From assembly GCA_016235025.1 (NCBI GenBank), contig JACRMV010000006.1, positions 236,951 through 300,950 of the forward strand: DNA of 64,000 nucleotides, written 5' to 3'. Source of the stretch: Rhodocyclales bacterium. Lineage in GTDB: Bacteria; Pseudomonadota; Gammaproteobacteria; Burkholderiales; Rhodocyclaceae. A program made the translations under genes and the position numbers. Each line of letters opens with the position of its first letter. Position 1 is the first letter of the stretch. Under the pieces are notes generated by a model. The model was not told the origin of the DNA and made no database searches. It saw only the letters and a program-made list of their open reading frames with translations. Positions 2,505 to 47,615 of this stretch are shown here, piece after piece.

Positions 2505-2566
2505 CAAACTTCATGCTATACCAAGGATTGCATTGCATCTTATTGAAAAATAAAGAATGGTAATAT

Positions 2567-2582
2567 TGGCACATTAAGTGCT
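2567..2582 (+). promoter_or_regulatory. Candidate sigma54 (-24/-12) promoter of the prepilin gene
   Basis: The sequence TGGCACATTAAGTGCT has GG and GC exactly ten bases apart, the hallmark spacing of RpoN promoters, and TGGCAC matches the -24 consensus. It lies about 40 bp before the prepilin start. Type IV pilin genes are often RpoN-dependent. Regulator sites were not identified. Confidence 0.6.
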
Positions 2583-2621
2583 TTTAACTATTCACCCATA
2601 AAGAGCCCTCGAGGAAACAAA

Positions 2622-3293: not shown

Positions 3294-3317
3294 ACGCAGC
3301 AGCGAGTTTGACAAGAA

Positions 3318-3336
3318 GACGGCCCTTCGGGCCGTC
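3318..3336. terminator. Bidirectional terminator between the prepilin gene and kefB
   Basis: GACGGCCC and GGGCCGTC form a perfect 8-bp stem around TTC, with T-rich sequence on both sides. It lies 25 bp after the prepilin stop and just after the stop of the converging antiporter gene, so it can serve both. Confidence 0.8.
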
Positions 3337-3337
3337 A

Positions 3338-8488: not shown

Positions 8489-9055
8489 ATGACCAACGTA
8501 CCCGCCCAAATCGTCAGCGCCAACAAAGCTGGTGTCGAAACCCTGTTGACAATCGCCAACACCGCATTCGCCAGCGCCGAGCGTCTTGCCGCCCTGAACC
8601 TGAACACTGCCCGCGCCCTGCTGGAAGACAGTGTTTCCAACGCCAAGGCTCTGCTCGCCGTCAAGGATGTGCAAGAACTGATCAACCTGCAAACCTCGCT
8701 GGCCCAGCCCGCTGTTGAGAAAGCAGTTGCCTACTCGCGCAGCGTGTATGAAATTGCCACCCAGACCCAAGGCGAACTGACCAAGGTTTATGAAAGCCAA
8801 GTATCCGAACTCAACGGCAACGTTTCCAGCGCGCTCGACAAGGCACTGAAGAATGCACCGGCCGGTTCCGATGTCGCTGTGGCTGCCGTGAAGTCGGCTA
8901 TCGCCGCCGCCAACTCGGCTTACGACAGCATGACCAAGGCTGCCAAGCAAGTCGCTGAAATTGCTGAAGCCAACGTGGCCGCCGCTGCCAATGCAACAGT
9001 CAGTGCCGTTGGCGCCAGCGCCCCGGTCGCGTCGAAGAGCAAGAAGGCCGCCTGA
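8489..9055 (+). CDS. Phasin family protein (PHA granule-associated)
   Basis: A 188-residue Ala-rich, almost wholly helical protein of the phasin_2/PhaP type, starting MTNVPAQIVSANKAGVETLL and ending with a Lys-rich SKSKKAA tail. Phasins coat polyhydroxyalkanoate granules and set their number and size. The start at 8489 is chosen over an upstream in-frame ATG because TTAAGGAG lies just before it and the family begins here. The perfect promoter, long leader and strong terminator suggest high expression. It indicates that the organism stores PHA. Confidence 0.9.
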   Translation: MTNVPAQIVSANKAGVETLLTIANTAFASAERLAALNLNTARALLEDSVSNAKALLAVKDVQELINLQTSLAQPAVEKAVAYSRSVYEIATQTQGELTKVYESQVSELNGNVSSALDKALKNAPAGSDVAVAAVKSAIAAANSAYDSMTKAAKQVAEIAEANVAAAANATVSAVGASAPVASKSKKAA

Positions 9056-9085
9056 TCTACCGCTTTACCTTGTAAGTCTCCTCCT

Positions 9086-9104
9086 CCAGTCCGCAACGGA
9101 CTGG
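9086..9104 (+). terminator. Hairpin after the phasin gene
   Basis: CCAGTCCG-CAA-CGGACTGG is a perfect 8-bp stem 30 bp after the phasin stop, directly before the main terminator. It may stabilise the mRNA 3' end. Confidence 0.5.
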
Positions 9105-9110
9105 TTTACA

Positions 9111-9138
9111 CCCGGTACCTCGGTACCGGGTTTTTTTT
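9111..9138 (+). terminator. Rho-independent terminator of the phasin gene
   Basis: CCCGGTAC and GTACCGGG pair around CTCG and are followed by eight T residues. A textbook intrinsic terminator. Confidence 0.92.
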
Positions 9139-9143
9139 GCCTG

Positions 9144-9170
9144 AAAAGTCGGCGCTGGAAGGATAGCGAA
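9144..9170 (+). repeat. 27-bp dispersed repeat, copy 2 (intergenic)
   Basis: AAAAGTCGGCGCTGG is exact; the second half is diverged (AAGGATAGCGAA). It lies just past the phasin terminator. Confidence 0.7.
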
Positions 9171-9253
9171 GAACCACGTTGCTTTTCCCGGCTTTCGGTG
9201 CAGGCTAACCTGAGCGTAGCGAAGGTTAAGCCGCGCAAGCGGCGGCCGGAGCC

Positions 9254-9280
9254 AAAAGTCGGCGCTGGCGCTACGGCGAA
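9254..9280 (+). repeat. 27-bp dispersed repeat, copy 3 (intergenic)
   Basis: AAAAGTCGGCGCTGGCG followed by CTACGGCGAA, close to the consensus. It ends 2 bp from the stop of the FKBP gene and forms a direct-repeat pair with the copy 110 bp to its left. Confidence 0.85.
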
Positions 9281-9282
9281 CA

Positions 9283-9627
9283 TCAGAACAGCGCCAGCAA
9301 CTCCACCTCGAACACCAGCGTGGCATTGGGCGGAATCACGCCGCCAGCACCACGCGCGCCGTAGCCCAGTTGCGGCGGTATGGTAAGTTTCCGGGTGCCG
9401 CCGATTTTCATGCCGGCCACACCTTCATCCCAACCGGCGATCACGCGACCGCCGCCCAGGTGAAACTCGAACGGCTCATTGCGATCCTTGCTCGAATCAA
9501 ATTTGCGGCCATCGGTCAGCCAGCCGGTGTAATGCACGCTGACGGTCTGGCCGGCGCACGCTTCCGCGCCATCGCCTTCGATAATATCCTCGATAACGAG
9601 GCCGCTGGGAGTTGTGGTCTGGCTCAT
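9283..9627 (-). CDS. FKBP-type peptidyl-prolyl cis-trans isomerase
   Basis: A 114-residue single FKBP domain without signal peptide. It shows the family landmarks [39 protein letters not shown] and [31 protein letters not shown], with the active-site Tyr, Asp, Phe and Trp in place. It catalyses prolyl isomerisation during protein folding, probably in the cytoplasm. It is monocistronic and convergent with the phasin gene. Confidence 0.93.
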
Positions 9628-9669
9628 GTGCTGGATTCCTTGGGTGATGGTAACTGTGTGATGAAGTGA

Positions 9670-11871
9670 TTATGGGCGAATAATGCCTTGCAACCGGGGT
9701 GGAGCGAAAATGGCCTCAACGGCGCTTGCCGGCAAGGGCCGAGAAAAGTAAAAGCCCTGGAATTTATGGCAACCCAGGCCAAGCAAGACGTCGAGTTGCT
9801 CCTCGCTCTCGACACCTTCGGCGAGCAAATCGAGTTCCATGCTTCCGGCCAGCCCGATCACCGTCGTGACAATGGCGACATCGTCCGGATCGGTCGTCAG
9901 ATCGCGGACGAAACCCTGATCCACTTTCAGCTTATGTACTGGAAACCGCTTCAGATAGGCGAGGCTCGAATATCCGGTGCCGAAATCATCAATCGCGACG
10001 CGCACCCCCATCGCGGCGAGTTCGTCCAGCCGGGCAGTGGTCTCGGTCACATCGTGCATCAGGCTTGACTCGGTAATTTCCAGTTCCAGCAGGCTGGCAG
10101 GCTGGCCGGTTTCGGCCAGGATACGGCGCACGCTCTCAACCAGGTCTTTCTGGCGAAACTGGCGTGGCGACAAATTGACCGAGACAGGAACCAGCGGCCA
10201 ACCCTGCTGCTGCCACTGCCGATTCTGCGCGAGCGCCGTGCGCAACACCCACTCACCCAGCGGGATGATCAGCCCGCTTTCCTCCGCCACCGGGATGAAC
10301 TCGGCGGGCGAAATCAGGCCATGCTCCGGATCGTTCCAGCGCACCAGCGCCTCCATTCCGCATACCGCACGGCGCTGCCAATCGATCAGCGGCTGATAGT
10401 GCAACAGCAACTGATCGCTATCGATAGCCTGCTGCAAACGGTGTTCCATCTCGAAGAAGCGCGAAGCCTGCTCGTTCATCTGCCGTGAAAAAAACTGGAA
10501 GTTATTCCGTCCCGTCGCCTTGGCGTGATACATCGCAGTATCGGCATTTTTCATCAACATGACAGCATCCATTCCGTCGTCTGGATAAACGGCGATACCG
10601 ATCGATGGCGTGATACGAATCACACCGCCGGCAAGACATACCGGGGGGGCCAGAACCGCGAGTATTTTTTCCGCAACCAGCACGGCATCGTCCGGCGATG
10701 CGATTTCATGCAGCACAATGACGAATTCATCGCCACCGAAGCGTGACACCGTATCGACAGCCCGCACCACATTTTTCAGGCGTTGCGCGACGGACTGCAA
10801 CAACTCATCGCCGACAGCATGTCCCAGGGTGTCATTGATACTCTTGAACCGGTCAAGGTCGATGAACATCACCGCCGCACGCTTTTTGTCGCGCTGCGCC
10901 TGCTCCAGCGCCTGGCCGAGCCGATCATGCAGCAACGCGCGGTTGGGCAGGCCGGTGAGCCCATCATGATGCGCCATCTCCCAGGCGCGTCGCTCAGCCT
11001 GCAAGCGCTCGAAAACTTCCTGCTGCAGTTGGGTCACGGCGGCCTCAAGCTCGACGGTGCGCTCGGCAACGCGCGCTTCAAGCTGCGCCTGTATACCCAG
11101 CAGGGCCTGCTCCGCAGCGTGTTGCGCACTAATATCCTTGATCGTACTGATGACGTCATCCCCGGCTCCAGGGACGCGCCGACTGGTGAGACTGGCCCAG
11201 AAAATCGTGCCGTTGCGCCGCCGCAAAGGAAGCTCGCTGACGGCTGGCTCGCCTTCGGCGAAGGCGGCTGCCGAAGCGGTAACGAATTGCTGATAATCCG
11301 CCTCGCTCCAAAACAGCATGCGTGCCGGGTTGCCGATCAGATCAGCCACATCATGGCCCGTCATCGCCGCGAGCCAAGGATTGCAACGCAAGATGACGCG
11401 TCCCCGCATAAACGCAATGCCAATCGCCACATTGTCGAAAATCAGCTGCTGGTCGGCGAGAGCACGCTGCAGTTTCTCTTCGGCCTCATGCAACTCGTCA
11501 ACATCCTCAAGGAACCAAAGCGTGCCCCGGCCCGGCTGCATCGGGTCGATCGCCCGGGCCTGCATCCGGCACCAGAACCGGCTGCCGTCCTTGCGCCTGA
11601 GTTCAACCTCGGCATGAAACACCTTTCCGGCAGCCAGAACCGGCGCGGCCTCCAGGCCGAGCGCCAGGTAAACATTCTCGTCCGGATAAATCATCACGGC
11701 CGGCTGACCGAGCAATTCCTCGGGCGCATAACCCAACATCTGCGCACATTCGTGATTGACTTCGTAAAATTCACGGTTGCGGGTAAACAAAATACCCAGC
11801 GGCGCGTTCTCCATCAAACCCGCCAGTCCAAGACGCGAGGAGAGTTGGCCAGGACTGCGGACAGGTGTCAT
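9670..11871 (-). CDS. PAS-PAS-GGDEF-EAL cyclic-di-GMP signalling protein
   Basis: A 733-residue cytoplasmic protein. PAS domains lie at about residues 20-130 and 145-255, a coiled coil follows, then GGDEF (about 300-465, active site FGGDEF intact) and EAL (about 480-725, with GMEALVRW and DDFGTGYSSLAYLKR). The intact motifs suggest it could both make and break down c-di-GMP, with PAS domains sensing a small ligand or redox state. No membrane segments are seen. Its start overlaps the stop of the upstream dehydrogenase gene by 4 bp, an unusual partner, so co-transcription may be incidental. Confidence 0.93.
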   Translation of the reverse strand: MTPVRSPGQLSSRLGLAGLMENAPLGILFTRNREFYEVNHECAQMLGYAPEELLGQPAVMIYPDENVYLALGLEAAPVLAAGKVFHAEVELRRKDGSRFWCRMQARAIDPMQPGRGTLWFLEDVDELHEAEEKLQRALADQQLIFDNVAIGIAFMRGRVILRCNPWLAAMTGHDVADLIGNPARMLFWSEADYQQFVTASAAAFAEGEPAVSELPLRRRNGTIFWASLTSRRVPGAGDDVISTIKDISAQHAAEQALLGIQAQLEARVAERTVELEAAVTQLQQEVFERLQAERRAWEMAHHDGLTGLPNRALLHDRLGQALEQAQRDKKRAAVMFIDLDRFKSINDTLGHAVGDELLQSVAQRLKNVVRAVDTVSRFGGDEFVIVLHEIASPDDAVLVAEKILAVLAPPVCLAGGVIRITPSIGIAVYPDDGMDAVMLMKNADTAMYHAKATGRNNFQFFSRQMNEQASRFFEMEHRLQQAIDSDQLLLHYQPLIDWQRRAVCGMEALVRWNDPEHGLISPAEFIPVAEESGLIIPLGEWVLRTALAQNRQWQQQGWPLVPVSVNLSPRQFRQKDLVESVRRILAETGQPASLLELEITESSLMHDVTETTARLDELAAMGVRVAIDDFGTGYSSLAYLKRFPVHKLKVDQGFVRDLTTDPDDVAIVTTVIGLAGSMELDLLAEGVESEEQLDVLLGLGCHKFQGFYFSRPLPASAVEAIFAPPRLQGIIRP

Positions 11872-32936: not shown

Positions 32937-34003
32937 ACACCATATTCCGCGCACGCAGCGTTGCCTGCTGTACCGTTATGCTGTCTGTCATAGCGTTTTC
33001 CCTGCCGACAGCGGCGCAATCACTCATCGAGGCGCAGCAAACGGAGCTTCGTCAAAAACAGCCGCTGTGGAACATTCCGCGCATCCCGGACGGGATGCAA
33101 AGCGCTCCGCTGGGCAAAGTGACAACGCGCAGCTCCGGCGCCGCGGCTGTTTCCCTTGAGGCCCGCAACGTCGATTTCGACGTGACCGGCGATATCGGCT
33201 TCCATATCGATCACCTGGCAGCCTCCCTCGAACCGGTAACCGCAGGTGATCCGGTGCAGCTCGACGATCCGCGCACCTTCGTCATCCGTATTCACAGCGG
33301 TGAAGTTACCCTCTCGCCAAAAGCACTCAACGCCCTGTTCAACCAGCACATTCTCGACTATACGCCACGGCCGCTGAATGACATGCGCATTACCACCAAC
33401 GAAGAGGGACTCGCAGCACAAGCCGACCTTCGGCTATGGAGCTGGTTTCCGGGGTTCTGGCTTGGAGCAAAACTGGTCGGTCCCATTACCTTGAATAACG
33501 AAAACGAACTGGTCTATAGCCCGCAGGATGTCCGCGTACTCGGCATTCCTTTGGGCGGACTACTCCGAACGCTCGGCATCAAGTTAAGCTGGCTCCTCAG
33601 CGTGGATCGGGAGGGAGCAAATCTCCTCGGTAACAATCTGGTTCTCAACCACCGCAAGGTCTTTCCTCCCCCGGCACTAGCCGGCAATATCGCCTCGGCC
33701 AAACTGTCGGAAGCGGGATTGCACCTGACCTTCGCCGACAATCCGGCGGCGAAATTCAGCCCACCGCCTCAAGCCGCCAAAAGCTATCTCTGGATACAGT
33801 CCGGCGATGCGAAGCTATTTGATGTCATTGTGATGAACGCCAATATCCTGATCGAGGACGAGAAGAAGGATGAGATGCTGCACTTCAACCTGTATGATTA
33901 CCGCCAACAGGTATTAGCCGGCGCCCTCTTCATGGACGAAGACGGGGCGATCATCGCCAAGATTCCCTCATATCAGCGTCTGACAGAAAATAACACTCAC
34001 TAG
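32933..34003 (+). CDS. Exported protein of unknown function, paralogue 2 of a tandem pair
   Basis: A 356-residue protein with a signal peptide ending near [10 protein letters not shown]. It shares the paralogue's plan in the same order: [58 protein letters not shown] and [26 protein letters not shown]. Identity is moderate, so the duplication is old. No catalytic motif or Cys pair is evident. Translation is probably coupled to the upstream gene (ATGA overlap). A long hairpin follows the stop. Confidence 0.7.
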
Positions 34004-34020
34004 CTGAACCACAGCGAGAC

Positions 34021-34044
34021 CCAGCCGGTACCAGTACCGGCTGG
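34021..34044 (+). terminator. Hairpin after the tandem pair
   Basis: CCAGCCGGTA and TACCGGCTGG form a perfect 10-bp stem around CCAG, 18 bp after the stop. There is no T-run, so it may act as a transcript-end stabiliser or weak terminator. Confidence 0.55.
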
Positions 34045-34130
34045 CAACGCGATTCGATGCCAAAGGCATCCCCGTTTTCAGGAAGAGAGGCGGTGAGTTT
34101 TTTTCATGTCCAGCAATGCGCGGAAGCCGT

Positions 34131-34245
34131 CCAGTTCGAGCGCCACGGCTACTTCGTCGTCGACCACAGCGATTCCCGGCCCGGCGCGCCGATATTCAAT
34201 CGCACGGTGACGCTGAAGGATTCGTGGGCCAAGGCCGGCAAGTAG
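34131..34245 (+). pseudogene. Remnant of the glnS 3' end
   Basis: The frame reads [20 protein letters not shown], then [18 protein letters not shown] and a stop. It matches the last 33 codons of glnS and has the more usual GlnRS ending DSWAK. It looks like the original terminus cut off from the gene by the cassette, or a duplicate of it. Any product would be a fragment. Confidence 0.85.
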
Positions 34246-34326
34246 CGTCGACAAACAGGGTTTGGCGAATGTCGGCAGAAAAGGCAGAATGACGTTCCGA
34301 TCACGCCTCTTCTGAAAGGATTTCCC

Positions 34327-34830
34327 ATGCGTAAATTTTTCTTTCTCGTGCCCGTCGCCTGTATCGGTGTTGCTGTCGCCGCGCAGGCCGAAACCATGAA
34401 ACCCGGCCTGTGGGAAATCACCTCGCAGATGAGCGGCGGCAACATGCCGAAAATGCCGGCCGTTTCTGCTGCGCAACGCAAGCAGATGGAGGCCATGGGC
34501 ATCAAACTGCCGGGTGCAGCCGGCGGCCCGATGACCGTCACGGCCAAACATTGCGTAACGAAACAAGAAGCTGAAAAACGGCTGCCGCCGCAAGGCGAGG
34601 ACCCCAACACCCATTGCGCGCAGAAGGACATAAAAACTTCCGGCAACACCACGACCTGGAAAATCGAATGCACCGGCAAGCGGAAGATGAGCGGCGTCGG
34701 CTCGATGACCTGGCAAGGCCCGGAGCACTACACGGGAGAATCGACGTTCAGCACGAGCGATCCACAGCGCGGGCCATCGATCATGAAGCAGGTCTACAGC
34801 GGCAAGTGGCTCGCAGCAAACTGCAAGTAG
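34327..34830 (+). CDS. DUF3617 family periplasmic protein
   Basis: A 167-residue protein with a signal peptide (MRKFFFLVPVACIGVAVAAQA) and the DUF3617 start ETMKPGLWEITSQMSGG. Conserved Cys residues lie in TAKHCVTKQEAEK, DPNTHCAQKDIK and KIECTGKRKMSG. Members are common in proteobacteria and have no established role. It lies between the glnS remnant and the integrated element. Confidence 0.82.
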   Translation: MRKFFFLVPVACIGVAVAAQAETMKPGLWEITSQMSGGNMPKMPAVSAAQRKQMEAMGIKLPGAAGGPMTVTAKHCVTKQEAEKRLPPQGEDPNTHCAQKDIKTSGNTTTWKIECTGKRKMSGVGSMTWQGPEHYTGESTFSTSDPQRGPSIMKQVYSGKWLAANCK

Positions 34831-34966
34831 TGCCGGGGCACGCCACGCAAGCCGCTGACGGCGCGTCGTGCGAAAAGCAAACCGGGGAATGGCGGGAGGG
34901 TGTCTGCCGAACTATGGTTTGCAATCCTTGCCACAACTGCGCTTTCGCTTTCATGCTTTAACGTGT
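34831..34966. other. Noncoding gap left of the integrated element
   Basis: No convincing gene. One plus-strand frame is Cys-rich (GEWREGVCRTMVCNPCHNC) but starts inside the DUF3617 gene. TGGCGGGAGGGTG (about 34889-34901) resembles the end of tRNA-Ser on this strand with one base missing, a very weak candidate for an outer attachment site. Confidence 0.3.
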
Positions 34967-34985
34967 TACCACGATAGTTACCACG
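34967..34985 (+). repeat. Left copy of the element-end direct repeat
   Basis: TACCACGATAGTTACCACG. A copy with two differences lies at 43319-43337 in the same orientation, upstream of the integrase. Each holds two TTACCACG-type boxes, as expected for integrase arm sites or end sequences. Confidence 0.7.
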
Positions 34986-35038
34986 TTTTTCCCTTCGCTA
35001 CCCATGACATGCGCCAGGGCCTCCGGCAGATCATGCGA

Positions 35039-35200
35039 TCAGTCAGGCCGTATGCCGATGCCGCCCACCGGATTCAACAGCAGCAGCATGCCGCAGGCCG
35101 GCACACGACGCGCGCAGGCGATCAGGCCCGGCGCGATGTACAGCAAAGGCAATAGCCCGATCAAATAGCCCAGCAACGCGATTGAGGTATGCATATCCAT
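35039..35200 (-). CDS. Small membrane protein resembling superinfection-immunity proteins
   Basis: A 53-residue protein. MDMHTSIALLGYLIGLLPLLYIAPGLIACARR is a hydrophobic stretch followed by VPACGMLLLLNPVGGIGI. The pattern of a membrane helix with Y-x-x-P, a basic loop and then LLN-x-x-G-x-x-x-I resembles the Imm superinfection immunity family of T4 and many prophages, though the second membrane segment is cut short. It lies after the capsid terminator. A role in blocking DNA entry by other phages is speculative. Confidence 0.45.
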   Translation of the reverse strand: MDMHTSIALLGYLIGLLPLLYIAPGLIACARRVPACGMLLLLNPVGGIGIRPD

Positions 35201-35218
35201 TATTTCATCTAGTCCATC

Positions 35219-35277
35219 AAAAAAAGCCGCCTGCACCAGAAGTGCAAGGCCGGCCGCACCTTGTAAGTGCGGCCGGC
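35219..35277 (-). terminator. Terminator of the capsid operon
   Basis: Read on the minus strand there is a perfect 11-bp stem (35267-35277 with 35249-35259), then a second hairpin built on TTGCAC/GTGCAG, then seven T residues (35225-35219). It ends the minus-strand run 130-190 bp after the capsid stop. Confidence 0.8.
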
Positions 35278-35407
35278 TGTTGTGGGTGCGTCGTGAAGCG
35301 GCGGAGAGGAGCACCGAACCCGAGACGCGCCGCCTGGAATCTCCCGTTTCCAAGCCGGGTATTTCCAGCGCGCCCATGAAATCGCAAAGCGCGCTGGAAT
35401 ACTGCGG

Positions 35408-36787
35408 CTACGGCAGGATGCCAATCACTTTGCAGAAGCTCTCAGGGTGAGCCAAAGCGACATCCATGCGCAGGTGCGCAATGAAGCCGTATTGGAGGTT
35501 GCCCATGAAGGTTTCGCGCATGACCTCGATTCGCATGTCCTGCCGTACCCCGATCAAGAGTTGACTGAAGTCGCCAACAATGATCGGACTGCAAACCGCG
35601 CCGGATGTACCTTGCACCTGCGTAATCGGGATGGAGGTTGTCACCAGTTGCGGCAGGCCTGCCAGCGCCGGAGGTGGTTGCAGCGGCTGTCCGGTGGTGT
35701 CGGCAAAGCCCTGGATCGTTCGCCAGGTACGCGGGTGCATTACCTGCGCCGTAGGCTTCGCCGCGTTATCCAGCTCCAGCTCATATAGCGCATCCAACTG
35801 CTTACCGTACGTAGTGAGCTGAGCCCCATTGGTGCCCATGCTTACGCTGTTCACGTTCGTGGTGTTGAAGATGCCCCGTGGCTCCGGCGCGGTGCCACTG
35901 CCGATCAGGGCAACCCGATCCAGCTCGCCGGCCAGCGCTCCGGCAAACGCCGCCGAGAGTGCCTGATCGATGTTGGCTGAGTCGTCGAGCAGCTCGCGCG
36001 AGACTTTGACCAGCACAGCGAGCGAGCGCGCCGTGAAGGTTACAGCCTCGAAGGTGGGGTCACTCTCAGCCACGGCTGCATTTTCCGCACGCCATCCTGC
36101 CGTTGGGTCGCTGGCGATTCGGGCGATGGTTGTCACTTGAGTTTCCAGCGGAACAGTGAGCGCGCCGGCCTGGATACACACCATCTTCGCGCGCATCTTG
36201 TCGATGATGTCGGCCATCAACCGCTTGGGTACGGTGTAGCCCCCTGCGGAATCGGTGCCCTCAGCCAATGCGTTACGGATATCACCCCGATTGGTGCCGC
36301 TGACCATCGCGGCAACGTACTCGCCGAAACTGAAGTCATCGCGGCTCCCTGAGTATGCTACCTGGTCGATAAAGCTGTCGTTCTTGTTGAGTATCTGAAT
36401 TCGCGCCCCAGTGGAAGATCGCATCTGGTTGCCCATGCCGCCAGACTCCTTCGCGACAATTTCGTTCATCGACAATTGCCGATCGAGAAGTTGCGCAATC
36501 CTTGATGTTTCCTCGGCGTATTTCAGGAACTTTTCAGCATCGTCGTTTTTTCCAGCCGTCATGGCTGCACTTGCCTTGTCCGCGAACTCGTTTGAGATCC
36601 GCCGGCAGTTGCTACGCTCGGAAAGCAGCTCGCCGCGGCTCATTTTACTAAGTTCTTTGTTGCTGATCTTGTGCCCGGCCTTGGCGATTTCGATCTGTGT
36701 CAGGCGACACGTCATTTCCCCGTCATGGTCGCTTTCATTCCAAGGGGTAGGCTCGTAGAGGTTCCTGTGATTGGTTCTTGCATTCAT
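35408..36787 (-). CDS. HK97-family phage major capsid protein
   Basis: A 459-residue protein. The N-terminal about 120 residues are charged and helical, like the delta/scaffolding domain of HK97-fold capsid proteins. The capsid domain follows, with NALAEGTDSAGGYTVPKRL, GWRAENAAVAESDPTF, LAVLVKVSRELLDDSANID and the closing RQDMRIEVMRETFMGNLQYG / HLRMDVALAHPESFCKV region. It is preceded by GGAGAAACACC. No protease, portal or terminase gene lies beside it, which is unusual: capsid genes nearly always sit in a head-gene cluster. It may let a satellite build or remodel its own shell. Confidence 0.9.
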   Translation of the reverse strand: MNARTNHRNLYEPTPWNESDHDGEMTCRLTQIEIAKAGHKISNKELSKMSRGELLSERSNCRRISNEFADKASAAMTAGKNDDAEKFLKYAEETSRIAQLLDRQLSMNEIVAKESGGMGNQMRSSTGARIQILNKNDSFIDQVAYSGSRDDFSFGEYVAAMVSGTNRGDIRNALAEGTDSAGGYTVPKRLMADIIDKMRAKMVCIQAGALTVPLETQVTTIARIASDPTAGWRAENAAVAESDPTFEAVTFTARSLAVLVKVSRELLDDSANIDQALSAAFAGALAGELDRVALIGSGTAPEPRGIFNTTNVNSVSMGTNGAQLTTYGKQLDALYELELDNAAKPTAQVMHPRTWRTIQGFADTTGQPLQPPPALAGLPQLVTTSIPITQVQGTSGAVCSPIIVGDFSQLLIGVRQDMRIEVMRETFMGNLQYGFIAHLRMDVALAHPESFCKVIGILP

Positions 36788-36961
36788 GGTGTTTCTCCAA
36801 ATTGCGGTCGGGTAAACGCCAAAAGGCGCGCCGACCAGGGTTCAAAATGATTGACTTGGCCAAGGCGCGCCCTTCGTGGAAGGTGCCGCAATTCGATCAC
36901 ATTGGTCCGAAGGCCGTAGGCCAGCGGGATGCGATAGCCGAAGATTATCATTAAAAAGATT

Positions 36962-37195
36962 TCAATGCAACGGCGGTTTCCTTGTCGTTTGGCCAAGGGT
37001 TACTTTGCTGGCCATCAGTTTCGCGAGTTGGTGCTGTAGAACAATCTGCATAGCGGCGCGCCCCAGATCGGGCAAGAGCCCTCGCTCCAAAATCACCTGT
37101 GCGGCATACGCAAGATCGCCGTGCTGCGATATATCGTTACCAGACACTGCGCTGCGTAGCGCGTCCACTAGACACTCCAGTTCCTTGCCGCTCAT
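36962..37195 (-). CDS. Small element protein of unknown function
   Basis: A 77-residue protein, MSGKELECLVDALRSAVSGN and onwards, mostly helical, without recognisable motifs. The start at 37195 is supported by AAGGAGATTGAGC directly upstream; a longer frame upstream lacks such a site. It lies between the Zn-finger-like protein and the capsid gene. A role in packaging or regulation is possible but not shown. Confidence 0.6.
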   Translation of the reverse strand: MSGKELECLVDALRSAVSGNDISQHGDLAYAAQVILERGLLPDLGRAAMQIVLQHQLAKLMASKVTLGQTTRKPPLH

Positions 37196-37229
37196 GCTCA
37201 ATCTCCTTCCCTTCGTAGTAGTTCGGTGT

Positions 37230-37499
37230 CTATACGTCTGCACTTTCATCGCGTTCGGCTGAAATCAACTCCGCCAAGCGCGCCTCCTGCCGCTCGATCT
37301 CCTTGGCTGCATTCGCGGCCCATCGCTCGGCGCCCTTAATGCGCCACAGTGATTCACTTTTTTCCAGTTGGGCAATCCGGGCATTGAGGCGGCGAATTTC
37401 CATCATCGTCGTCTTCTGGCAGGTTTCGCCGCAGTACCGGCGCGGCCGGCCTGATCCCTCCCGATCCTGGAGTTCCTTTCCACATTTCAGGCAATTCAT
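37230..37499 (-). CDS. Small zinc-finger and coiled-coil protein
   Basis: An 89-residue protein. MNCLKCGKELQDREGSGRPR followed by RYCGETCQK gives two CxxC-type pairs typical of a zinc ribbon. Then a Leu/Arg/Glu-rich helix (RRLNARIAQLEKSESLWRIK) suggests a coiled coil. GAAAGGACAAAGG is a good ribosome binding site. Such proteins in phages often bind DNA or regulate transcription; nothing more specific can be said. Confidence 0.7.
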   Translation of the reverse strand: MNCLKCGKELQDREGSGRPRRYCGETCQKTTMMEIRRLNARIAQLEKSESLWRIKGAERWAANAAKEIERQEARLAELISAERDESADV

Positions 37500-37652
37500 T
37501 CCTTTGTCCTTTCAATAAATTCACGTTTTTTGAGGGGTACCCCCCCATTACTCCCGCCCATAAAAATCTAGCTAGGCGAACGGTACCGAGGCTTGGGTCT
37601 GTAGAGATTTGATGCCCCCCCCTATCCCTACCCCTGCCACGCTCGCCCCTAT

Positions 37653-37677
37653 CGAATTACTCGAATAACCGAAAAAC
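37653..37677 (+). repeat. Iteron-like repeat, left arm of a 25-bp inverted repeat
   Basis: Begins CGAATTACTCGAAT and continues AACCGAAAAAC. The reverse complement recurs at 37708-37732 with one mismatch, about 30 bp away. Confidence 0.85.
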
Positions 37678-37707
37678 CGGACTGGGTTCGATCTGCATGA
37701 CTTTCGT

Positions 37708-37732
37708 GTTTTTCGGTTATTCGAGTATTTCG
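37708..37732 (-). repeat. Iteron-like repeat, right arm of the 25-bp inverted repeat
   Basis: Reverse complement of the arm at 37653-37677 with one mismatch. The 30-bp spacer would form the loop of a large cruciform. Confidence 0.85.
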
Positions 37733-37792
37733 ACATACCCCGCCGTCCATGGGCTATGTGTTTGAGTAGAAGAAAGAACCTTTGAAAATGCT

Positions 37793-40132
37793 TCATAGCG
37801 AATTACTCGAATCGTCGAACAGCGCCGGATTGACGTGATACAGCGGCGTCGGCCGCGCCCCGATGTTGCGCTGCATGCGAACAGGCGAGAGCGCGTTCCA
37901 TTCGGTCAGCCGCGCCGCTGCATCCTCCAGACGCTTGACGGTGCGGAACCGGCCCTCCAATGCCTTCTGCGCCTCGCTGCGCTTGAACTGCGTCAGCCGG
38001 TGCGCCTGTATCCAGCGCAGCAGGGCGCGCGCATCATCCTCGATGGCATCGGCGCCCAGGAGCCGGAACGCGCTCTCCGCGTGCGGGATCAATAGCGAGG
38101 CCAGGCGCACCGCACGGCGCATGCAATCGACGTCCACCCGGCGCGCTTCGCTCCGGCTGTGCGCCAACTCCAGCAGCGCCGCGATCCGCGCCACGGCGCC
38201 GGGCAGCTTGCCCGACCAGTCCGAGATGGATTCAAACCGTCCGCCGTCGCCCTGGTTGCGCTCCACCTTCTCGGCAAACACCAACCACAGCTCGCGGGCC
38301 TCGTCGGACAGATCGAGAACTATCGGCGCACCAGGCGGCGCCGGATCGGTGCGCGGCAGCAGCGAGAACAACAGGTTCTCCCATTCGTCGCGCAGCGCAG
38401 AAGGTATGCCGATGCGGGCGCGCACGTCCCGCGCTCCCACCATGCTTTCAGGAATCACAAACAGGAACCGCGCCAGGAGTCCGCTATCGCGGAAGCGCCG
38501 CACGCCTGCCAGCTCGGCCAATATGCCCGGCTGAATCATCAGGCCAAAGGAGAGTGCCGGACGGTCGACGTGCGCCTCGCGGCCGGCGCGATCCACGCGG
38601 AAGGGCGCCCCACTGTGGCTCTGCAGGAAGGCGTCGATATTCGCCACGCCGCCGCTGTACTGCCCCGCAAGAATCTGGAAGATGCCCGGCTCATCCGACA
38701 ACACCGTCATGCGTTCGCCATGTTCGGCTATAAGGCCCTGCAGGCGCTCAGGCGTTACGTCGCCGGTGGAGAGGCGAGGCGCGCGCAGCTCGTCGGGTGT
38801 TGCCAGTTCCTCGTCTTCGATCTGTTGCCGGATTTGTTCTCGCTCGTGCGCGTCAGCCGCCTTCGCCGCTTGCTGCGTCAATGCCTCGATGCGCTTCTTT
38901 GCCACCAGGCGCCGGCTATTGACGCGGGCGATTTCGGCGCGCAGCCGGTCTCGCTCCAACTTCTCATAGCGATGCAGCGGTGCAGCCAGGGCGCCGATGA
39001 TTGCGGTCTTGCGAGCCCCGGAAGGCAGTGCCACCAGCGTCCACAAGCTCAGTGTTTCCCGGTATTCGTCGGAGTAGGGCGCGACTTCGAAGCGGCGTTG
39101 CAGTACCGCCGCCAGCACGGACAAGGCGCACATGATGCTTGCCGCCTCGGGTGTCTGCGTACTGCGCGCAACGGCCGTCGCCATCTCCCCGATGACGCCG
39201 GGAAGCAGATCGGTCGCCGACAGGGCTGGCGTCTGGATCGCGCCGGGCAGCGACAACTCGCCGAATTGCTCGGGGATCTCCTCGCGCCATCCGTTGCCTC
39301 TCGCGATGTAGGCCAGGCTGGCCAATGTCACACGCTGCCCGCCGTCGCGTGCAAAGGATTGCCATCGCTTGCGGTGTTCGTCGGCGTCGAACTTGGCGGA
39401 CTGCTGCGCCCAGGTTGCCCACAAGTCGAAGCCCTGGTCACTCCCGCCTGTCTCATGGTGCAGAGCCATGCCGGTACGCACCCAGGCATCATGATTATCA
39501 AAGTCGCCGCAGTAGCGCAGCATCGCCCGCGTGCGCTCGATCTCATGCGCCGGCAATGTCCTACCCTTGCCGGCCTCGCGTTCGCCGCTTGGCGGGCCTC
39601 CTGCGCGACTTGTTCGTTCCAGCCAGCGCGGCGCCTCGGGAATCTCTACATCGGGCCGCCAGGGATCAAGCTCATCAAGCCAGGTGTAATTCGGCGTCGG
39701 TTCGACGCAGATGTAGCAGTGCGGGCCGTGTTTCAGATCAACATCGGCACCGGCCGTACCTGGATAGCTCGCCCCTTCGCGCGCCTTCAGCAGGTAATGC
39801 CATCCGCCTGATCGGGTGCGCTGCACCGGGCCATCGGGCAGGGCGCCATGCTTCGCCACCAGGGCATCGAAGGTTTCCGCGCCGCGCTTGTCGTCGCGCA
39901 CATCGACGTCGACGGCAACCAGCCCATCCAGCGCCATGCCGACGCCGGCATGGGGCAGGCGTTGGAACCAATCGCGAATGACCGCCTCGTCGGTTGTGGC
40001 GTCTTTGGCGCCGTGTTCGCACAATGGCGCCTTGCTGTGTGGATGGCAAGGGAGGATGCGAAATCCACGGCGGGCATAGCGAACGGCGAAGTCGATCAGC
40101 GATATGCCGCTGGAATCTGATCCTTGCGTCAT
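37793..40132 (-). CDS. Bifunctional primase-polymerase / DUF3987 replication protein
   Basis: A 779-residue protein. The N-terminal about 180 residues are a prim-pol domain (FAVRYARRGFRILPCHPHSK, DGLVAVDVDVRDD with the metal-binding Asp residues, RTRSGGWHYLLK). A PriCT-2-like domain follows at about 205-280 (FDNHDAWVRTGMALHHETG). The rest is DUF3987-like with a degenerate P-loop (ALPSGARKTAII) and SDEPGIFQILAGQYSG. Such proteins start replication of plasmids, phages and satellites. The start overlaps the stop of the upstream Cys-rich gene (ATGA). Next to it lies an iteron-like inverted repeat. Confidence 0.87.
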   Translation of the reverse strand: MTQGSDSSGISLIDFAVRYARRGFRILPCHPHSKAPLCEHGAKDATTDEAVIRDWFQRLPHAGVGMALDGLVAVDVDVRDDKRGAETFDALVAKHGALPDGPVQRTRSGGWHYLLKAREGASYPGTAGADVDLKHGPHCYICVEPTPNYTWLDELDPWRPDVEIPEAPRWLERTSRAGGPPSGEREAGKGRTLPAHEIERTRAMLRYCGDFDNHDAWVRTGMALHHETGGSDQGFDLWATWAQQSAKFDADEHRKRWQSFARDGGQRVTLASLAYIARGNGWREEIPEQFGELSLPGAIQTPALSATDLLPGVIGEMATAVARSTQTPEAASIMCALSVLAAVLQRRFEVAPYSDEYRETLSLWTLVALPSGARKTAIIGALAAPLHRYEKLERDRLRAEIARVNSRRLVAKKRIEALTQQAAKAADAHEREQIRQQIEDEELATPDELRAPRLSTGDVTPERLQGLIAEHGERMTVLSDEPGIFQILAGQYSGGVANIDAFLQSHSGAPFRVDRAGREAHVDRPALSFGLMIQPGILAELAGVRRFRDSGLLARFLFVIPESMVGARDVRARIGIPSALRDEWENLLFSLLPRTDPAPPGAPIVLDLSDEARELWLVFAEKVERNQGDGGRFESISDWSGKLPGAVARIAALLELAHSRSEARRVDVDCMRRAVRLASLLIPHAESAFRLLGADAIEDDARALLRWIQAHRLTQFKRSEAQKALEGRFRTVKRLEDAAARLTEWNALSPVRMQRNIGARPTPLYHVNPALFDDSSNSL
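37799..37812 (+). repeat. Iteron-like repeat, third half-copy
   Basis: CGAATTACTCGAAT, identical to the first 14 bases of the inverted-repeat arm, overlaps the end of the replication-protein gene. Confidence 0.7.
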
Positions 40133-40515
40133 CAGGCGTGCCCTCCTGCCGGCATCGCCATGACCATGCCGGCCTTGGCTGCCTCGCGGGCCTCAACCAA
40201 TAGCTTGTGACTTACCTTGTTGCCATTGGCCCGCATTATGGCGGTGCAATGGCCACACAACAGCCAAGCCGTGCAGTAGATCGCCCCCGACAGATCGAGG
40301 TGAGTAACGCGACCGATTCCTCGGGCCTTACGCGCGGCCGTGAACGGCTTTTCGCACTCACCGCAATGGTCTCCGCAACCAGCGCGGATCAACTCGTCAC
40401 CCAATGCTTTGCTGATTGCGCCACGTAACGGCAGAACCGATAGCATCGGGCACCCTGAGCCCTCGCGCACGGACCAAGTCTTTTGGCCATGAGGCACCCC
40501 CTGGTGGCTTTTCAT
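40132..40515 (-). CDS. Cys-rich zinc-binding protein of the element
   Basis: A protein of up to 127 residues (a start at 40446, MLSVLPLRG, would give 104). Two Cys clusters, GCGDHCGECEKPF and IYCTAWLLCGHC, suggest a zinc ribbon. The gene is translationally coupled to the downstream replication protein, so it may work in replication, for instance as a loader or regulator. The family is not recognised. Confidence 0.6.
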   Translation of the reverse strand: MKSHQGVPHGQKTWSVREGSGCPMLSVLPLRGAISKALGDELIRAGCGDHCGECEKPFTAARKARGIGRVTHLDLSGAIYCTAWLLCGHCTAIMRANGNKVSHKLLVEAREAAKAGMVMAMPAGGHA

Positions 40516-40521
40516 GGCCGC

Positions 40522-40731
40522 TTACCGAGCACGTGACGCGATAACGCGCTCATGTAGCCATTGCGTTATTTCGGATTCAATCCAACCAACAGACTGCGCG
40601 CCTAGGTGTATCGGCTTGGGGAAGGTGCCGGCAGCAGCCATGGAATATATGGTGGAACGGGAAAGGCCCGTGCGGGATTCAACTTGCTTGCGCCGTAGGA
40701 TGGTTAGCGCGCCTTGGATTTGTGCAGCCAT
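40522..40731 (-). CDS. AlpA-family transcriptional regulator
   Basis: A 69-residue helix-turn-helix protein of the AlpA/phage excisionase type: ILRRKQVESRTGLSRSTIYS, then GTFPKPIHLGAQSVGWIESEITQWL. AlpA proteins activate integrase/excision or early genes in P4-type elements and Gram-negative phage satellites. The start at 40731 is chosen because CAACAGGAGAAAG precedes it. A longer frame upstream (MFRTVPERF) lacks a ribosome binding site. Confidence 0.85.
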   Translation of the reverse strand: MAAQIQGALTILRRKQVESRTGLSRSTIYSMAAAGTFPKPIHLGAQSVGWIESEITQWLHERVIASRAR

Positions 40732-40823
40732 GTTTCGCTTTCTCCTGTTGAAGGTAAAGCGCTCCGGAACAGTCCGGAACATAGCTATCCATTATTCACA
40801 TTGAGATTTTGAAATCTTTCTAT

Positions 40824-41364
40824 TTATAAGGGCTGCTTTTTAGAAACTCTTGCGCCGCTCGTCTTTTCGATTTCCTTCCTTTTCCCGTAGTAGGCTGCCC
40901 GCGCGGACTCATACGAAACCGACCAGTCGGCGGCAACGCGCGCGATGGCGGCGGTAGCCTTCAGTCCAGAATCAGAATTAAGTGCATTGGCGATATCGCA
41001 ATAGATACCAAGTCGCTGCCACTCCGCCCGCGAGAATGGAAGCGATATCTTCGTCCAAGGCAGCTGGATTTCATCTTCCCATCGCCCCCCCCTGGATCAC
41101 CTTCCACAACTGATTTGCCAGTTCATTCAAGACTATTGCATCAACTTTTTCTTTATTGAAAACTTGCTCACAAAATCGAATGATAATGCGCAGATGAAAC
41201 TCGTCGGCTTCGACATCAGATAAGGACCCGCTACCAAGGCGTTCGATGTACTCATGAAAGTCTTCCGGACCAGCCAAAAAGTACGGCTCCCTGTCCTGAG
41301 GGTCATTTCTCTTCGATTTTGGCGGCGAGAAAATCAGGCCATCAAAATTGGTACTTTTTCTCAC
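40824..41364 (-). pseudogene. Element gene split in two frames by a G8 tract
   Basis: Frame 1 starts with GTG at 41364 (RKSTNFDGLIFSPPKSKRND) and ends after LWKVIQGGAMGR at 41071. In the next frame, without its own start codon, the sequence continues WEDEIQLPWTKISLPFSRAE and runs for 85 codons to a stop at 40824. The two join if the run of eight G (41085-41092, C on the plus strand) is one base shorter. The result is a protein of about 180 residues with no recognised domain. Possibilities are phase variation by slipped-strand repair, ribosomal frameshifting at the tract, recent inactivation, or a base-calling error. Confidence 0.65.
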
Positions 41365-41472
41365 AACACCCCCTTTCGTGCCCCCTTGATTCAGGATCGC
41401 CGCGCCAGCCGGGTAAGGGTGCCCGGTGTTCGCCCTTGGGGATCAGCCGCAGGCTAGGCGCAGCGAAATCAG

Positions 41473-41958
41473 TTACAGCAAACCTCGTTCCGCGAACGAC
41501 AGCGGCATACCCCGGCCGGCGACAATGAAATGGTCAAGCACCTTGACGTCCACCAAAGCCAGGGCGGATTTAAGCGATCCGGTCAACACTTCGTCGGCGC
41601 GGCTAGGCTCGCTCAGTCCGGACGGGTGATTATGGGCGAATATGACGGCGGCGGCATTCAAGCGCAGCGTCACCTTCACCACTTCACGCGGGAAAACGCT
41701 CGTCTGCGTCAGGGTGCCCCGGAACAGTTCTCTGTACTCGATTAGGCGATTTTGAGCATTGAGGAACAGCGCCACGAATGCCTCATGTTCCAGTTCGGCA
41801 AGATGCAGCATCAGGAGGGCACGAACTGCGCCAGGAGAACTCAGGCACGCGCCCGGCTCACGTAGGCGCGAATTCAAAACAGCCAGCGCCTTGAGAATGA
41901 TTGCATCGCCCCGGCGACGGGGGCGGGCGGGTGCAGCGGTAGAATTGCCAGTAGCCAT
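41473..41958 (-). CDS. RadC-like JAB-domain protein
   Basis: A 161-residue MPN/JAB metalloprotease-fold protein. [20 protein letters not shown] is the hallmark motif, with the two His and the Asp that bind zinc; VLDHFIVA ends the domain. It lacks the helix-hairpin-helix region of chromosomal RadC. Short RadC-like proteins are frequent on integrative elements and plasmids, often near anti-restriction genes, but the function is unknown. Confidence 0.88.
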
Positions 41959-42055
41959 GATTCACCTCGTATGTAGGTGGGTTGCGGTCAGGGGTCGCCG
42001 GGTGTTTCCGCACTCGCCGGCCCCGCTTTTTGCCTCGCGGCAAATTCGAGTTATT

Positions 42056-43288
42056 TCATGCGGCGTGCCCGTGCAGCGGGATTACTTGGGCGCCGGCCTT
42101 GATCTTGTCCAGGTAGTCAGCCCACTGCTGCATCATCTTGACGCGCTCCGCCAGATACTCGGCACGGTTGTATGCCCCCCGCACTTCGTCCCGCTCACAG
42201 TGCGCGAGCTGGCGCTCTATCACGTCAGGGCGATAGCCCTGCTCGTTCAGCATGGTTGAGGCCACGGCGCGGAATCCGTGCCCGGTCATCTTGCCTTTAT
42301 ACCCCAGGCGGTACAGCGCAAAAAGCATGGTGTTGTTGCTTATCGGCTTATCCCGATTCCTGCCAGGGAACACGAAGCGGCTGCGGCCGGCGAGCACCTG
42401 TAGCTCACTAAGGATCGCCAGGGCTTGAGCGGAGAGCGGGACGATATGCTCGGATTTCATTTTCATTCTGGCGGCAGGGATAACCCATAGCGCGGCCTCC
42501 TGGTTGAACTCCGACCACTCCGCCCCGATCAGCTCATTGGTGCGGACGAAGGTGAGCGCCAGCAGTTGCAAGGCGTGCATGGTTTGCTTGTCGCCTTGCT
42601 CGGCATAGGTGTCGATTGCTCGCAGTAAGGTCGGCACGTCTTCCGGCCTGACGGCGGCCTGGTGCTTTTTGATGTGCGGCGTCAGAGCGCCCCGCAGATC
42701 GGCGGCAACGTCCCGCTTGCAGCGCCCCGTTGCGATGCCGTAGCGGAACACTTGTCCACACGCCTGCATCAGCCGGTGCGCCAGATCATGCGCCCCGCGC
42801 TTCTCAATCTTGCGGGACATTTCCAAAAGCTCGGGCGCTTCAATCTCGCCAATCGGCCGCGCCCCGATGAACGGGAAGGTGTTAACCTCGAACCGGCGGA
42901 GAACATCGTTGGCGTGTTTCGGCACCCAGGTATGCAGTTGCTTCGCGTACCACTCCCGCGCAACGGCCTCGAACGAATTTTCAGATGCCCGTAATTGCCG
43001 CAGTTTGCCGGCCTTGCGTTCGGCGGACGGATCGATAGACTCCCCCATCAGCCTGCGGTTATCATCACGGCGCTGTCGCGCTTCCTTCAATCCGATTTCG
43101 GGATAGACGCCAAGGGATAGGGATTTTTCCTTGCCGGCCATCCAATACCGCAGCCGCCAGTATTTTCGCCCGTCCTCATAAACCCACAGGTAGAGGCCCG
43201 CACCATCGTGAAGCTTGCGTATGCTCTTTCCCCCGCTGGTGGCGTTGTCGCATTCCTTCGCCGTCAGGGTGTTCTGCTTTGCGGCCAT
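42056..43288 (-). CDS. int: P4-type tyrosine integrase
   Basis: A 410-residue site-specific recombinase. It has the N-terminal arm-binding DUF4102 domain (KLHDGAGLYLWVYEDGRKYW, YPEIGLKEARQRRD), a core-binding SAM-like domain and the catalytic domain with Arg (TFVRTNELIGAEW), HxxR (GHGFRAVAST), His (LAHCERD) and nucleophilic Tyr (RGAYNRAEY). The start at 43288 (MAAKQNTLT) follows GAGGAG. TTACCACG-type boxes lie at and upstream of the start, so the integrase may regulate itself by binding them. It is the gene closest to the tRNA-Ser 3' end. Confidence 0.93.
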   Translation of the reverse strand: MAAKQNTLTAKECDNATSGGKSIRKLHDGAGLYLWVYEDGRKYWRLRYWMAGKEKSLSLGVYPEIGLKEARQRRDDNRRLMGESIDPSAERKAGKLRQLRASENSFEAVAREWYAKQLHTWVPKHANDVLRRFEVNTFPFIGARPIGEIEAPELLEMSRKIEKRGAHDLAHRLMQACGQVFRYGIATGRCKRDVAADLRGALTPHIKKHQAAVRPEDVPTLLRAIDTYAEQGDKQTMHALQLLALTFVRTNELIGAEWSEFNQEAALWVIPAARMKMKSEHIVPLSAQALAILSELQVLAGRSRFVFPGRNRDKPISNNTMLFALYRLGYKGKMTGHGFRAVASTMLNEQGYRPDVIERQLAHCERDEVRGAYNRAEYLAERVKMMQQWADYLDKIKAGAQVIPLHGHAA

Positions 43289-43318
43289 CGTGGTAACTCC
43301 TCGACCGTGGTAACTCTG

Positions 43319-43337
43319 TACCACGATTTTTACCACG
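43319..43337 (+). repeat. Right copy of the element-end direct repeat
   Basis: TACCACGATTTTTACCACG, 17 of 19 bases equal to the copy at 34967-34985. More TTACCACG or CGTGGTAA boxes lie within 50 bp on both sides. Confidence 0.7.
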
Positions 43338-43394
43338 GTCTTACCACGGAAGCAACGGGATTAACTCGGAACGGTCAGGAACGCGCTACACATG

Positions 43395-43419
43395 AAAAAG
43401 CCCGCTGGCAGCGGGCTTT
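43395..43419 (-). terminator. Terminator of tRNA-Ser
   Basis: On the minus strand AAAGCCCGCT-GCC-AGCGGGCTTT is a perfect 10-bp stem followed by further T residues. It lies 33 bp past the tRNA 3' end. Confidence 0.88.
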
Positions 43420-43450
43420 AGGAATAATCTGGAACGGTTTGGAGGTGAAG

Positions 43451-43541
<91 letters not shown>

Positions 43542-43598
43542 GCGCGGCGCGCATTATAACCGGCGCCGGCCGATCCTGAACCGTTGCCGGAGAAAACC

Positions 43599-47615
<4,017 letters not shown>

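Follow-up and report, generated by a model that had tools for sequence, protein, structure and literature searches.

A compact integrative element of a Rhodocyclales bacterium with a single HK97-type major capsid gene, and its relatives

What use has an integrative element for a single virion gene? The question is raised by positions 34967-43337 of a 64,000-nucleotide stretch (the window) of contig JACRMV010000006.1 from a Rhodocyclales bacterium, where a first-pass annotation had described integrase, RadC, AlpA, prim-pol/DUF3987 and one HK97-type major capsid protein (MCP), all encoded in one direction. Pfam and TIGR01554 confirm these genes, all on the minus strand, and the region is, with the corrections given below, a real one-directional integrative element. 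The likeliest answer, in our judgement, is a satellite of about 8.4 kb, similar to the phage-inducible chromosomal islands (PICIs), whose MCP enters the heads of a helper phage and makes them satellite-sized. This reading starts from the anatomy of the element, its intact MCP gene, a near-empty site in two genus-mates, the recurrence of the design in relatives and purifying selection on the MCP in pairs of relatives.

The element and its site

Ten open reading frames (ORFs) of the element were scanned in Pfam and PHROGs (the mechanical ORF list for the region holds 111, mostly overlapping). The features, in the direction of the genes, are:

43452-43541, minus: tRNA-Ser(cga), 115 bp outside the right repeat
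43319-43337: right repeat, candidate attachment (att) site, TACCACGATTTTTACCACG, 17/19 match to the left repeat
42056-43336, minus: tyrosine integrase with Arm-DNA-bind_3, Phage_int_M and Phage_integrase domains (Pfam); an ATG at 43288 is also a possible start, as read from the translation
41473-41958, minus: RadC-like JAB-domain protein, 161 aa (PF04002, 6.8e-41)
41071-41364, minus: 97-aa ORF, no family in Pfam or PHROGs
40522-40782, minus: AlpA-family regulator, 86 aa (PF05930, 1e-21)
40132-40515, minus: 127-aa cysteine-containing ORF, no family in Pfam or PHROGs
37793-40132, minus: primase-helicase, 779 aa (Pfam: Prim-Pol 9.9e-29, PriCT_2 4e-17, DUF3987 2e-95)
37500-37792: lower-GC (0.485) region 3' of the primase gene with a 26-nt inverted repeat (37652-37677/37708-37733), candidate replication origin
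37230-37499, minus: 89-aa ORF with a cysteine motif, weak HNH-like PHROG match (0.019)
36962-37249, minus: 95-aa small ORF upstream of the MCP gene (ORF list)
35408-36787, minus: HK97-type MCP, 459 aa (PF05065, 9.2e-42; TIGR01554, 8.9e-56)
34967-34985: left repeat, candidate att site, TACCACGATAGTTACCACG, 17/19 match to the right repeat

Besides the MCP, none of the ten ORFs matched a terminase, portal, protease, tail or lysis family, nor a tape-measure, small terminase subunit (TerS) or tail-fibre-assembly family, and tblastn of positions 34000-44500 with HK97-type references gave no further head or tail match, in agreement with the absence first reported. The references, for the large terminase subunit (TerL), portal, protease, connector and major tail protein, came from HK97, from Ruminococcus, Streptococcus, Piscirickettsia and Corynebacterium records and from viral contigs L028-L036. 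The small zinc proteins of the annotation are cysteine-containing small ORFs with no Pfam match, zinc being suggested by the cysteines only.

The 19-bp direct repeats are imperfect but present beyond chance: Markov resampling of the MCP-side region never equalled 17/19 in 100 draws (mean 12.9, maximum 15), and the 64-kb window contains no third copy at four or fewer mismatches. The tRNA-Ser gene does adjoin the element, as had been noted, but as a neighbour of the insertion gap; its distance from the right repeat rules out the tRNA 3' end as the att site. The corresponding gap of genus-mates G001 and G003 has no insert, and its left gene stops within 100 bp of that tRNA.

Relatives with the same reduced gene set

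Scans with the MCP as a single query gave no relative and alignment-based queries were needed; these returned 20 loci in genome_contigs and 58 in viral_contigs. The working set (n = 14) comprises the window, the locus of genome G462 (L018) and the 12 best genome_contigs loci (L042-L053; 3e-55 or better, 39-54% identity), with the flanks of L048, L050 and L052 truncated near the MCP. Excluded from it are L054-L061 (E 3e-43 to 9e-9, 25-39% identity), five of which have portal matches (L054, L055, L057, L059 and L061). The viral comparison set (n = 18; E 4e-50 or better) comprises L028-L036 and L062-L070, with L037-L041 and L071-L106 uncounted. The search for other copies, which the annotation had proposed, yielded 13 relatives with this MCP. 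Eleven are titled Proteobacteria, namely alpha (L043-L049), beta (L042, L053) and gamma (L051, L052); L050 is titled only 'bacterium' and L018 comes from the window's class. Carriers include records named Silicibacter lacuscaerulensis ITI-1157, Altererythrobacter xiamenensis and Qipengyuania polymorpha strains.

None of the 14 loci, three of them truncated as stated, has a match to the TerL, portal, protease, connector or major-tail references, whereas the 18 viral contigs have TerL in 12, portal in 12 and protease in 13, with at least one of these in 14/18 and none of the three in L063, L064, L065 and L067. For L028-L036 the protease matches depend on a single reference, taken from L030 and identified by Pfam as Peptidase_S78. 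The annotation had held that relatives with full head and tail modules would mark the element as a decayed prophage; the nearer loci, free of TerL, portal and protease matches, speak for the annotation's reading, and the counts for the viral contigs speak against it. Searches with PF04860 and PF03354 in the 14 genomes found eight portal places (five genomes) and six TerL places (four genomes), none inside the loci: all are on contigs that differ in length from those of the loci, except in the genome of L049, where they are more than 0.3 Mb away on the same contig.

The gene order of the window is repeated in L042 (Burkholderiales), with integrase (cut by the contig end), RadC, a 220-aa ORF, AlpA (a weak match, 0.0091), primase, a 93-aa ORF and MCP; the primase, RepB_primase/PriCT_1/DUF3987, differs at its front end from that of the window. 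The primase position is occupied by an AAA_25 protein in L018, L044, L046, L047, L048 and L051, and by an HTH/DnaD-like or replication-initiator-like protein in L043, L045 and L049. An integrase was recognised in 11 of the 14 loci (the window; L018, L042, L044, L045 and L047-L049 by tblastn; L043 and L051 by clustering; L053 by Pfam) and was not found by these three means in L046, L050 and L052. Seven relatives have repeats on both sides, with spans of 7046 to 10694 bp:

L043: 45/45, at the tRNA-Cys 3' end
L044: 54/54, at the tRNA-Asn 3' end
L045: 46/46, at the tRNA-Arg 3' end
L047: 51/51, at the tRNA-Phe 3' end
L049: 48/48, at the tRNA-Thr 3' end
L051: 54/58, at the tRNA-Leu 3' end
L018: 15/15 (weaker), at tRNA-Ser

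The repeat search covered these loci together with L046 and L048, where no repeats were found; L042 and L046 either gave no repeat pair or run off the contig on one side.

Some relatives carry further virion genes. Long tape-measure genes were recognised by PHROG in L018 (719 aa, 7.6e-57), L045 (873 aa, 3.7e-61), L046 (607 aa, 1.6e-69) and L049 (612 aa, 2.9e-21), with partial ones in L050 near the contig end (tblastn 7e-57) and in L053 (a 161-aa piece). TerS-like genes (phrog_83) are present in L018, L049 and viral contig L064, while a TerS-similar ORF of L052 had no PHROG match; L047 has a tail-fibre-assembly gene and an HNH gene.

The MCP ORF is open in 14/14 loci. The MCPs of L044 and L045 are 90% identical, with dS of about 1.0 and dN/dS of 0.068, and the integrases 62% identical, a conservation unlike that of a remnant. 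Values for other pairs are 0.27 (L048-L049), 0.27 (L064-L065) and 0.64 (L063-L064); the MCP is under purifying selection in pairs of relatives. In the MCP tree (49 rows, including L003 as a frame with four stops read as X, badly placed) the window, L018 and L042 form a clade (support 95/91). The 17 rows labelled lone (the 14 together with L063-L065, which are outside that set) require four label changes against a mean of 14.2 on shuffling, with 0/500 shuffles as low; they are not one clade, the starred branches forcing at least two changes.

The MCP of the window matches 201 phage records and 216 plasmid records, all at less than 60% identity (23-31% among the 20 phage matches listed). The genomes of 101 relatives gave eight matches at 1e-3, seven besides its own at 23-33% identity; 369 genomes of the class gave seven at 1e-20 (its own, G462 at 51%, G324 at 43% and four at 28-33%); and 399 genomes of the order, scanned with a two-row profile, gave only its own and G324 at 1e-40. 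The primase has five relatives besides itself in those 399 genomes at E 1e-60, none with an MCP match at 1e-40, and no match in viral_contigs.

The capsid protein and its possible use

The AlphaFold2 model of the MCP (18 sequences; mean pLDDT 80.3, pTM 0.65) has helices at residues 21-36, 51-77 and 81-115, a low-confidence linker at 115-127 and the HK97 fold thereafter. Foldseek matches in PDB are HK97-type capsids, the best being a gene transfer agent (GTA) capsid (2.4e-15), with HK97 itself at 4.8e-14. Modelling, as the annotation had suggested, gave a helical N-terminal part that looks like a delta scaffolding domain. In HK97-like phages the delta domain is cut off by a protease; no protease match for this step occurs in the element by the reference tblastn or the scan of the ten ORFs. 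By Z-score the EcCI2 capsid, from a capsid-forming PICI (cfPICI), ties at 17.4 with encapsulins (up to 17.6) and phages; Ccm, described below, is absent from the structure-match list, which excludes nothing. Identity as an encapsulin was rejected, the best families being PF05065 and TIGR01554 with no encapsulin family listed and the N-terminal domain being helical; encapsulins are not known to have a delta domain.

The annotation knew of no described system with such a set, a statement that does not hold: SaPIbov5 with its Ccm protein and EcCICFT073 of E. coli are precedents, as far as the excerpts of the papers cited here describe them. Ccm is an HK97-fold homologue of the helper capsid protein with a delta domain, and those excerpts identify no protease in SaPIbov5 (PMC5052747, PMC8569155). 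Its place is in the pentamers, and with it prolate heads become T=4 heads; it forms no capsids of such Staphylococcus aureus pathogenicity islands (SaPIs) by itself (PMC5052747, PMC8569155). The two elements are alike in a single HK97-fold capsid protein homologue with a delta domain (predicted here) and no protease match. They differ in that SaPIbov5, as excerpted, is Gram-positive and Stl-regulated with a known cos site and helper (phi12), whereas the window element has AlpA, prim-pol/DUF3987 and RadC; by description only, Ccm has 355 aa and an 87-residue delta domain, and the MCP of the window 459 aa and a longer predicted N-terminal domain.

Capsid homologues are also reported in EcCICFT073 and PmCI172 (PMC6092414, PMC6893505, both in excerpt). 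EcCICFT073 encodes integrase, AlpA, primase, MCP and a decoration protein, with no terminase, portal or protease annotated, and shares with the window element unidirectional integrase, AlpA, primase and capsid genes (AlpA 46% identical over 48 aa, integrase 23%). Its capsid protein, however, is of the lambda gpE type (PF03864) and accompanied by the decoration protein, as opposed to HK97/PF05065, and its primase is of the D5_N type, as opposed to Prim-Pol/PriCT_2/DUF3987. The two capsid types suggest that satellites acquired capsid genes on two or more occasions, from distinct capsid families.

On the explanation we favour, modelled on Ccm as a direct precedent, a helper phage would induce the element via AlpA, the integrase would excise it, and the prim-pol/DUF3987 protein would replicate it, perhaps with the inverted-repeat region immediately 3' of its own gene as origin. 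During late helper expression the satellite MCP would join helper capsid assembly. A delta-like domain, yet no protease, portal or terminase gene, implies that helper (or host) enzymes would cleave the MCP, supply the portal and package the DNA. Shells of mixed or satellite-rich make-up would be small, with room for the satellite but not for the helper genome, as in the SaPIbov5 Ccm experiments. We infer this course, from induction and replication through co-assembly and size change to transfer, from anatomy and precedent.

Several results weigh against it. Comparative anatomy supports the annotation's idea of a lone-MCP satellite that probably acts on helper heads, but co-assembly with the helper capsid and small particle size are predicted only, and EcCICFT073 has a capsid gene yet normal-size heads (excerpt of PMC6893505), so that a satellite MCP need not resize. 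The element's own genome (G000, 95% complete) has no PF04860 portal and no PF03354 TerL gene, and neither has G462 (99% complete), other terminase families not having been searched in either; no resident HK97-type helper is therefore evident. An MCP match occurs in only one of eight genus-mates (G008, 27%), the 43% copy in G324 carries two stops, and the att repeat is imperfect. Some distant-MCP contigs (e.g. L037, L058, L067) also have no head-reference match, so that a very divergent head module could be missed, and module content varies, with L062 having MCP and portal and L070 MCP and protease.

Among the alternatives, the one that survives best is that the satellite MCP alone builds the head shell, with portal, protease, terminase and tail from the helper, as in a reduced cfPICI; we regard this as unlikely, though to be taken seriously. 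The predicted delta-like domain together with a complete HK97 fold would suit it, the occurrence of related MCPs in compact contigs with TerL, protease and portal means that the lineage includes likely shell formers, and in local alignments the tested satellite MCPs share only about 23-32% identity with the MCPs of phages and prophages used for comparison, so that mixing may be hard. However, Ccm is only about 19-23% identical to the helper capsid protein in the excerpted work, yet co-assembles and forms no capsids alone, and a satellite shell would have to dock on a foreign portal.

It is improbable that the MCP serves interference only, poisoning helper assembly as a defence while the element travels in helper heads of normal size or does not move. 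Expression of Ccm alone lowered the helper titre 10^3-10^4 fold (excerpt of PMC5052747) and EcCICFT073 is found in normal-size capsids (excerpt of PMC6893505), but integrase, AlpA, primase and att-like repeats point to mobility, and so to a need for packaging, and the four relatives with long tape-measure genes also argue against it. That the MCP is the functionless leftover of a decayed prophage or decayed cfPICI is the most improbable reading, for which the imperfect att repeat, the decaying relative in G324, the fuller head modules of other relatives and the lack of PF04860 and PF03354 genes in the genome might be cited, but which the same reduced set in 14 loci over Alpha-, Beta- and Gammaproteobacteria, the seven relatives with repeats on both sides, and the MCP ORFs, all open and with dN/dS of 0.07-0.27 in three pairs (0.64 in the fourth, L063-L064), make unlikely. 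A lone MCP beside an integrase is easily dismissed as a prophage remnant; some such loci are probably working satellites.

A broader generalisation, possible though short of likely, is that satellites of one lineage, widespread and mainly proteobacterial, contribute to the virion only those parts that determine its identity and size (MCP for head size and, in some members, tape measure for tail length and TerS for DNA choice), while portal, protease, motor, tube and baseplate would come from the helper, giving chimeric virions resized at head and tail. With their mix of MCP, tape measure and TerS, these elements offer a direct test of which virion parts a parasite has to encode itself.

Other systems, helper candidates and neighbouring sequences

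Unidirectional transcription is a trait of Gram-negative PICIs (PMC6092414, excerpt); traits of these islands present in the window are integrase, att-like repeats, AlpA, primase and the location of all genes on the minus strand. Other traits of the islands are att sites that prophages are not known to use, and helper-dependent induction and packaging with interference. cfPICIs share with the window element a satellite-encoded MCP; they also encode protease, portal, connectors, TerL/TerS and HNH (PMC10690885, excerpt), which are unmatched here apart from the weak HNH-like match of the 89-aa ORF. The PICI-like elements (PLEs) of Vibrio cholerae supply a tape-measure protein and make chimeric tails, and some cfPICIs have putative tape-measure genes (PMC12987554, excerpt); the capsids of PLEs come from the helper and are remodelled by TcaP (PMC12409344, excerpt). 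Four of the relatives may likewise supply a tape measure, unlike the window element. No P4-type Sid or Psu family occurs among the ten ORFs (Pfam/PHROGs, 0.1), neither having been sought directly. Clostridioides difficile plasmids of the pCD630 type (L020, L139) are about 8 kb and have one HK97-type MCP with no other head gene annotated in an incomplete plasmid gene table; they are plasmids with no integrase annotated, their MCPs are 28-29% identical to that of the window, and the resemblance is probably convergent. A pCD-WTSI1-like plasmid is reported to be protected in particles, and such non-phage elements are said to lack capsid genes (PMC10993401, excerpt).

The literature searched yielded no account of lone-MCP satellites of the HK97/delta type as a family in these bacteria, although work on cfPICIs, virion-encapsidated integrative mobile elements (VEIMEs) and tycheposons may contain such elements. 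As far as that literature goes, the family is what is new here, the capsid-homologue strategy being already known; the strategy is extended to an HK97-type family in Alpha-, Beta- and Gammaproteobacteria, with SaPIbov5 Ccm the only solved case met.

A candidate helper, judged by its genes, is a prophage-like stretch (L152) in the genome of L046, with TerL, portal, protease, MCP, head-closure and gp10-like genes. Its 627-aa tape measure and that of the L046 satellite share 42% identity over 303 aa, while the L046 MCP had no match to L152 in the same search. In the genome of L049, a compact stretch (L149, 4341-15148) has TerL, HNH, S78 protease, MCP and a PF04860 portal, and its 243-aa tape-measure-like ORF shares 58% identity over 221 aa with that of L049; the stretch is possibly a capsid-forming neighbour or partner. 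Of the eight stretches beside portals at other places in the relatives' genomes, five (L148, L150, L151, L153, L154) seem GTA-like and are uncounted as helpers; tape-measure-like ORFs of 188-224 aa are present in L148, L150, L151 and L153 and none in L154.

Repeats were sought in the 300 bp 3' of the replication gene in 13 regions (inverted and direct repeats, 40 resamples, two uncorrected tests per region). Inverted repeats exceeded all resamples (0/40) in the window, L042 and L051, and direct repeats in L043, L046, L047, L049, L051 and L064, so that 8/13 regions have one kind or the other; L044 and L045 are borderline (1/40), and neither kind was found in L018, L048 and L070. The repeats are compatible with the PICI origin layout of two iteron sets around an AT-rich region, though not proof of it.

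Small ORFs stand directly before the MCP in several relatives also; a single conserved family was unsupported for the window (E 0.68) and L042 (1.4). A 53-aa ORF (35039-35200) considered as a superinfection immunity protein had no Pfam match.

Among the IMG/VR contigs, L028-L036, L066, L068 and L069 (4-11 kb) carry a related MCP with TerL, protease and mostly portal, and look like capsid-forming satellites. Protease and MCP are fused in one ORF in L030, and L032 and L033 also have an integrase. The viral contig L062 (5.5 kb) combines MCP and portal with an integrase resembling that of the window (tblastn 1e-77) and is intermediate in module content. L064 has two lone-MCP stretches (about 2512-4193 and 8880-10518) flanking a tRNA-Asn, 85% and 80% identical to L065, an arrangement that suggests two satellites in a row.

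The insertion gap holds one more gene, outside the repeats:

34327-34830: no NCBIfam match, presumably DUF3617-like

This gene is not in the corresponding gap of G001 and G003, has a 56% identical copy in G010 and is possibly separate cargo. The left-flank gene ending at 34245, like its genus-mate counterparts, is glnS by our reading. The att motif has 11 matches in viral_contigs, none beside a homologue of the window integrase in the stretch fetched. The locus was taken from six genus-mates; in G004, G005 and G006 the left-flank match was not found in the stretch compared. G007 has about 2.8 kb of other DNA between the left gene and tRNA-Ser(cga). By our reading a similar short ORF adjoins the tRNA in G007 (L118) and G006 (L122), so that the gap may be an integration hotspot.

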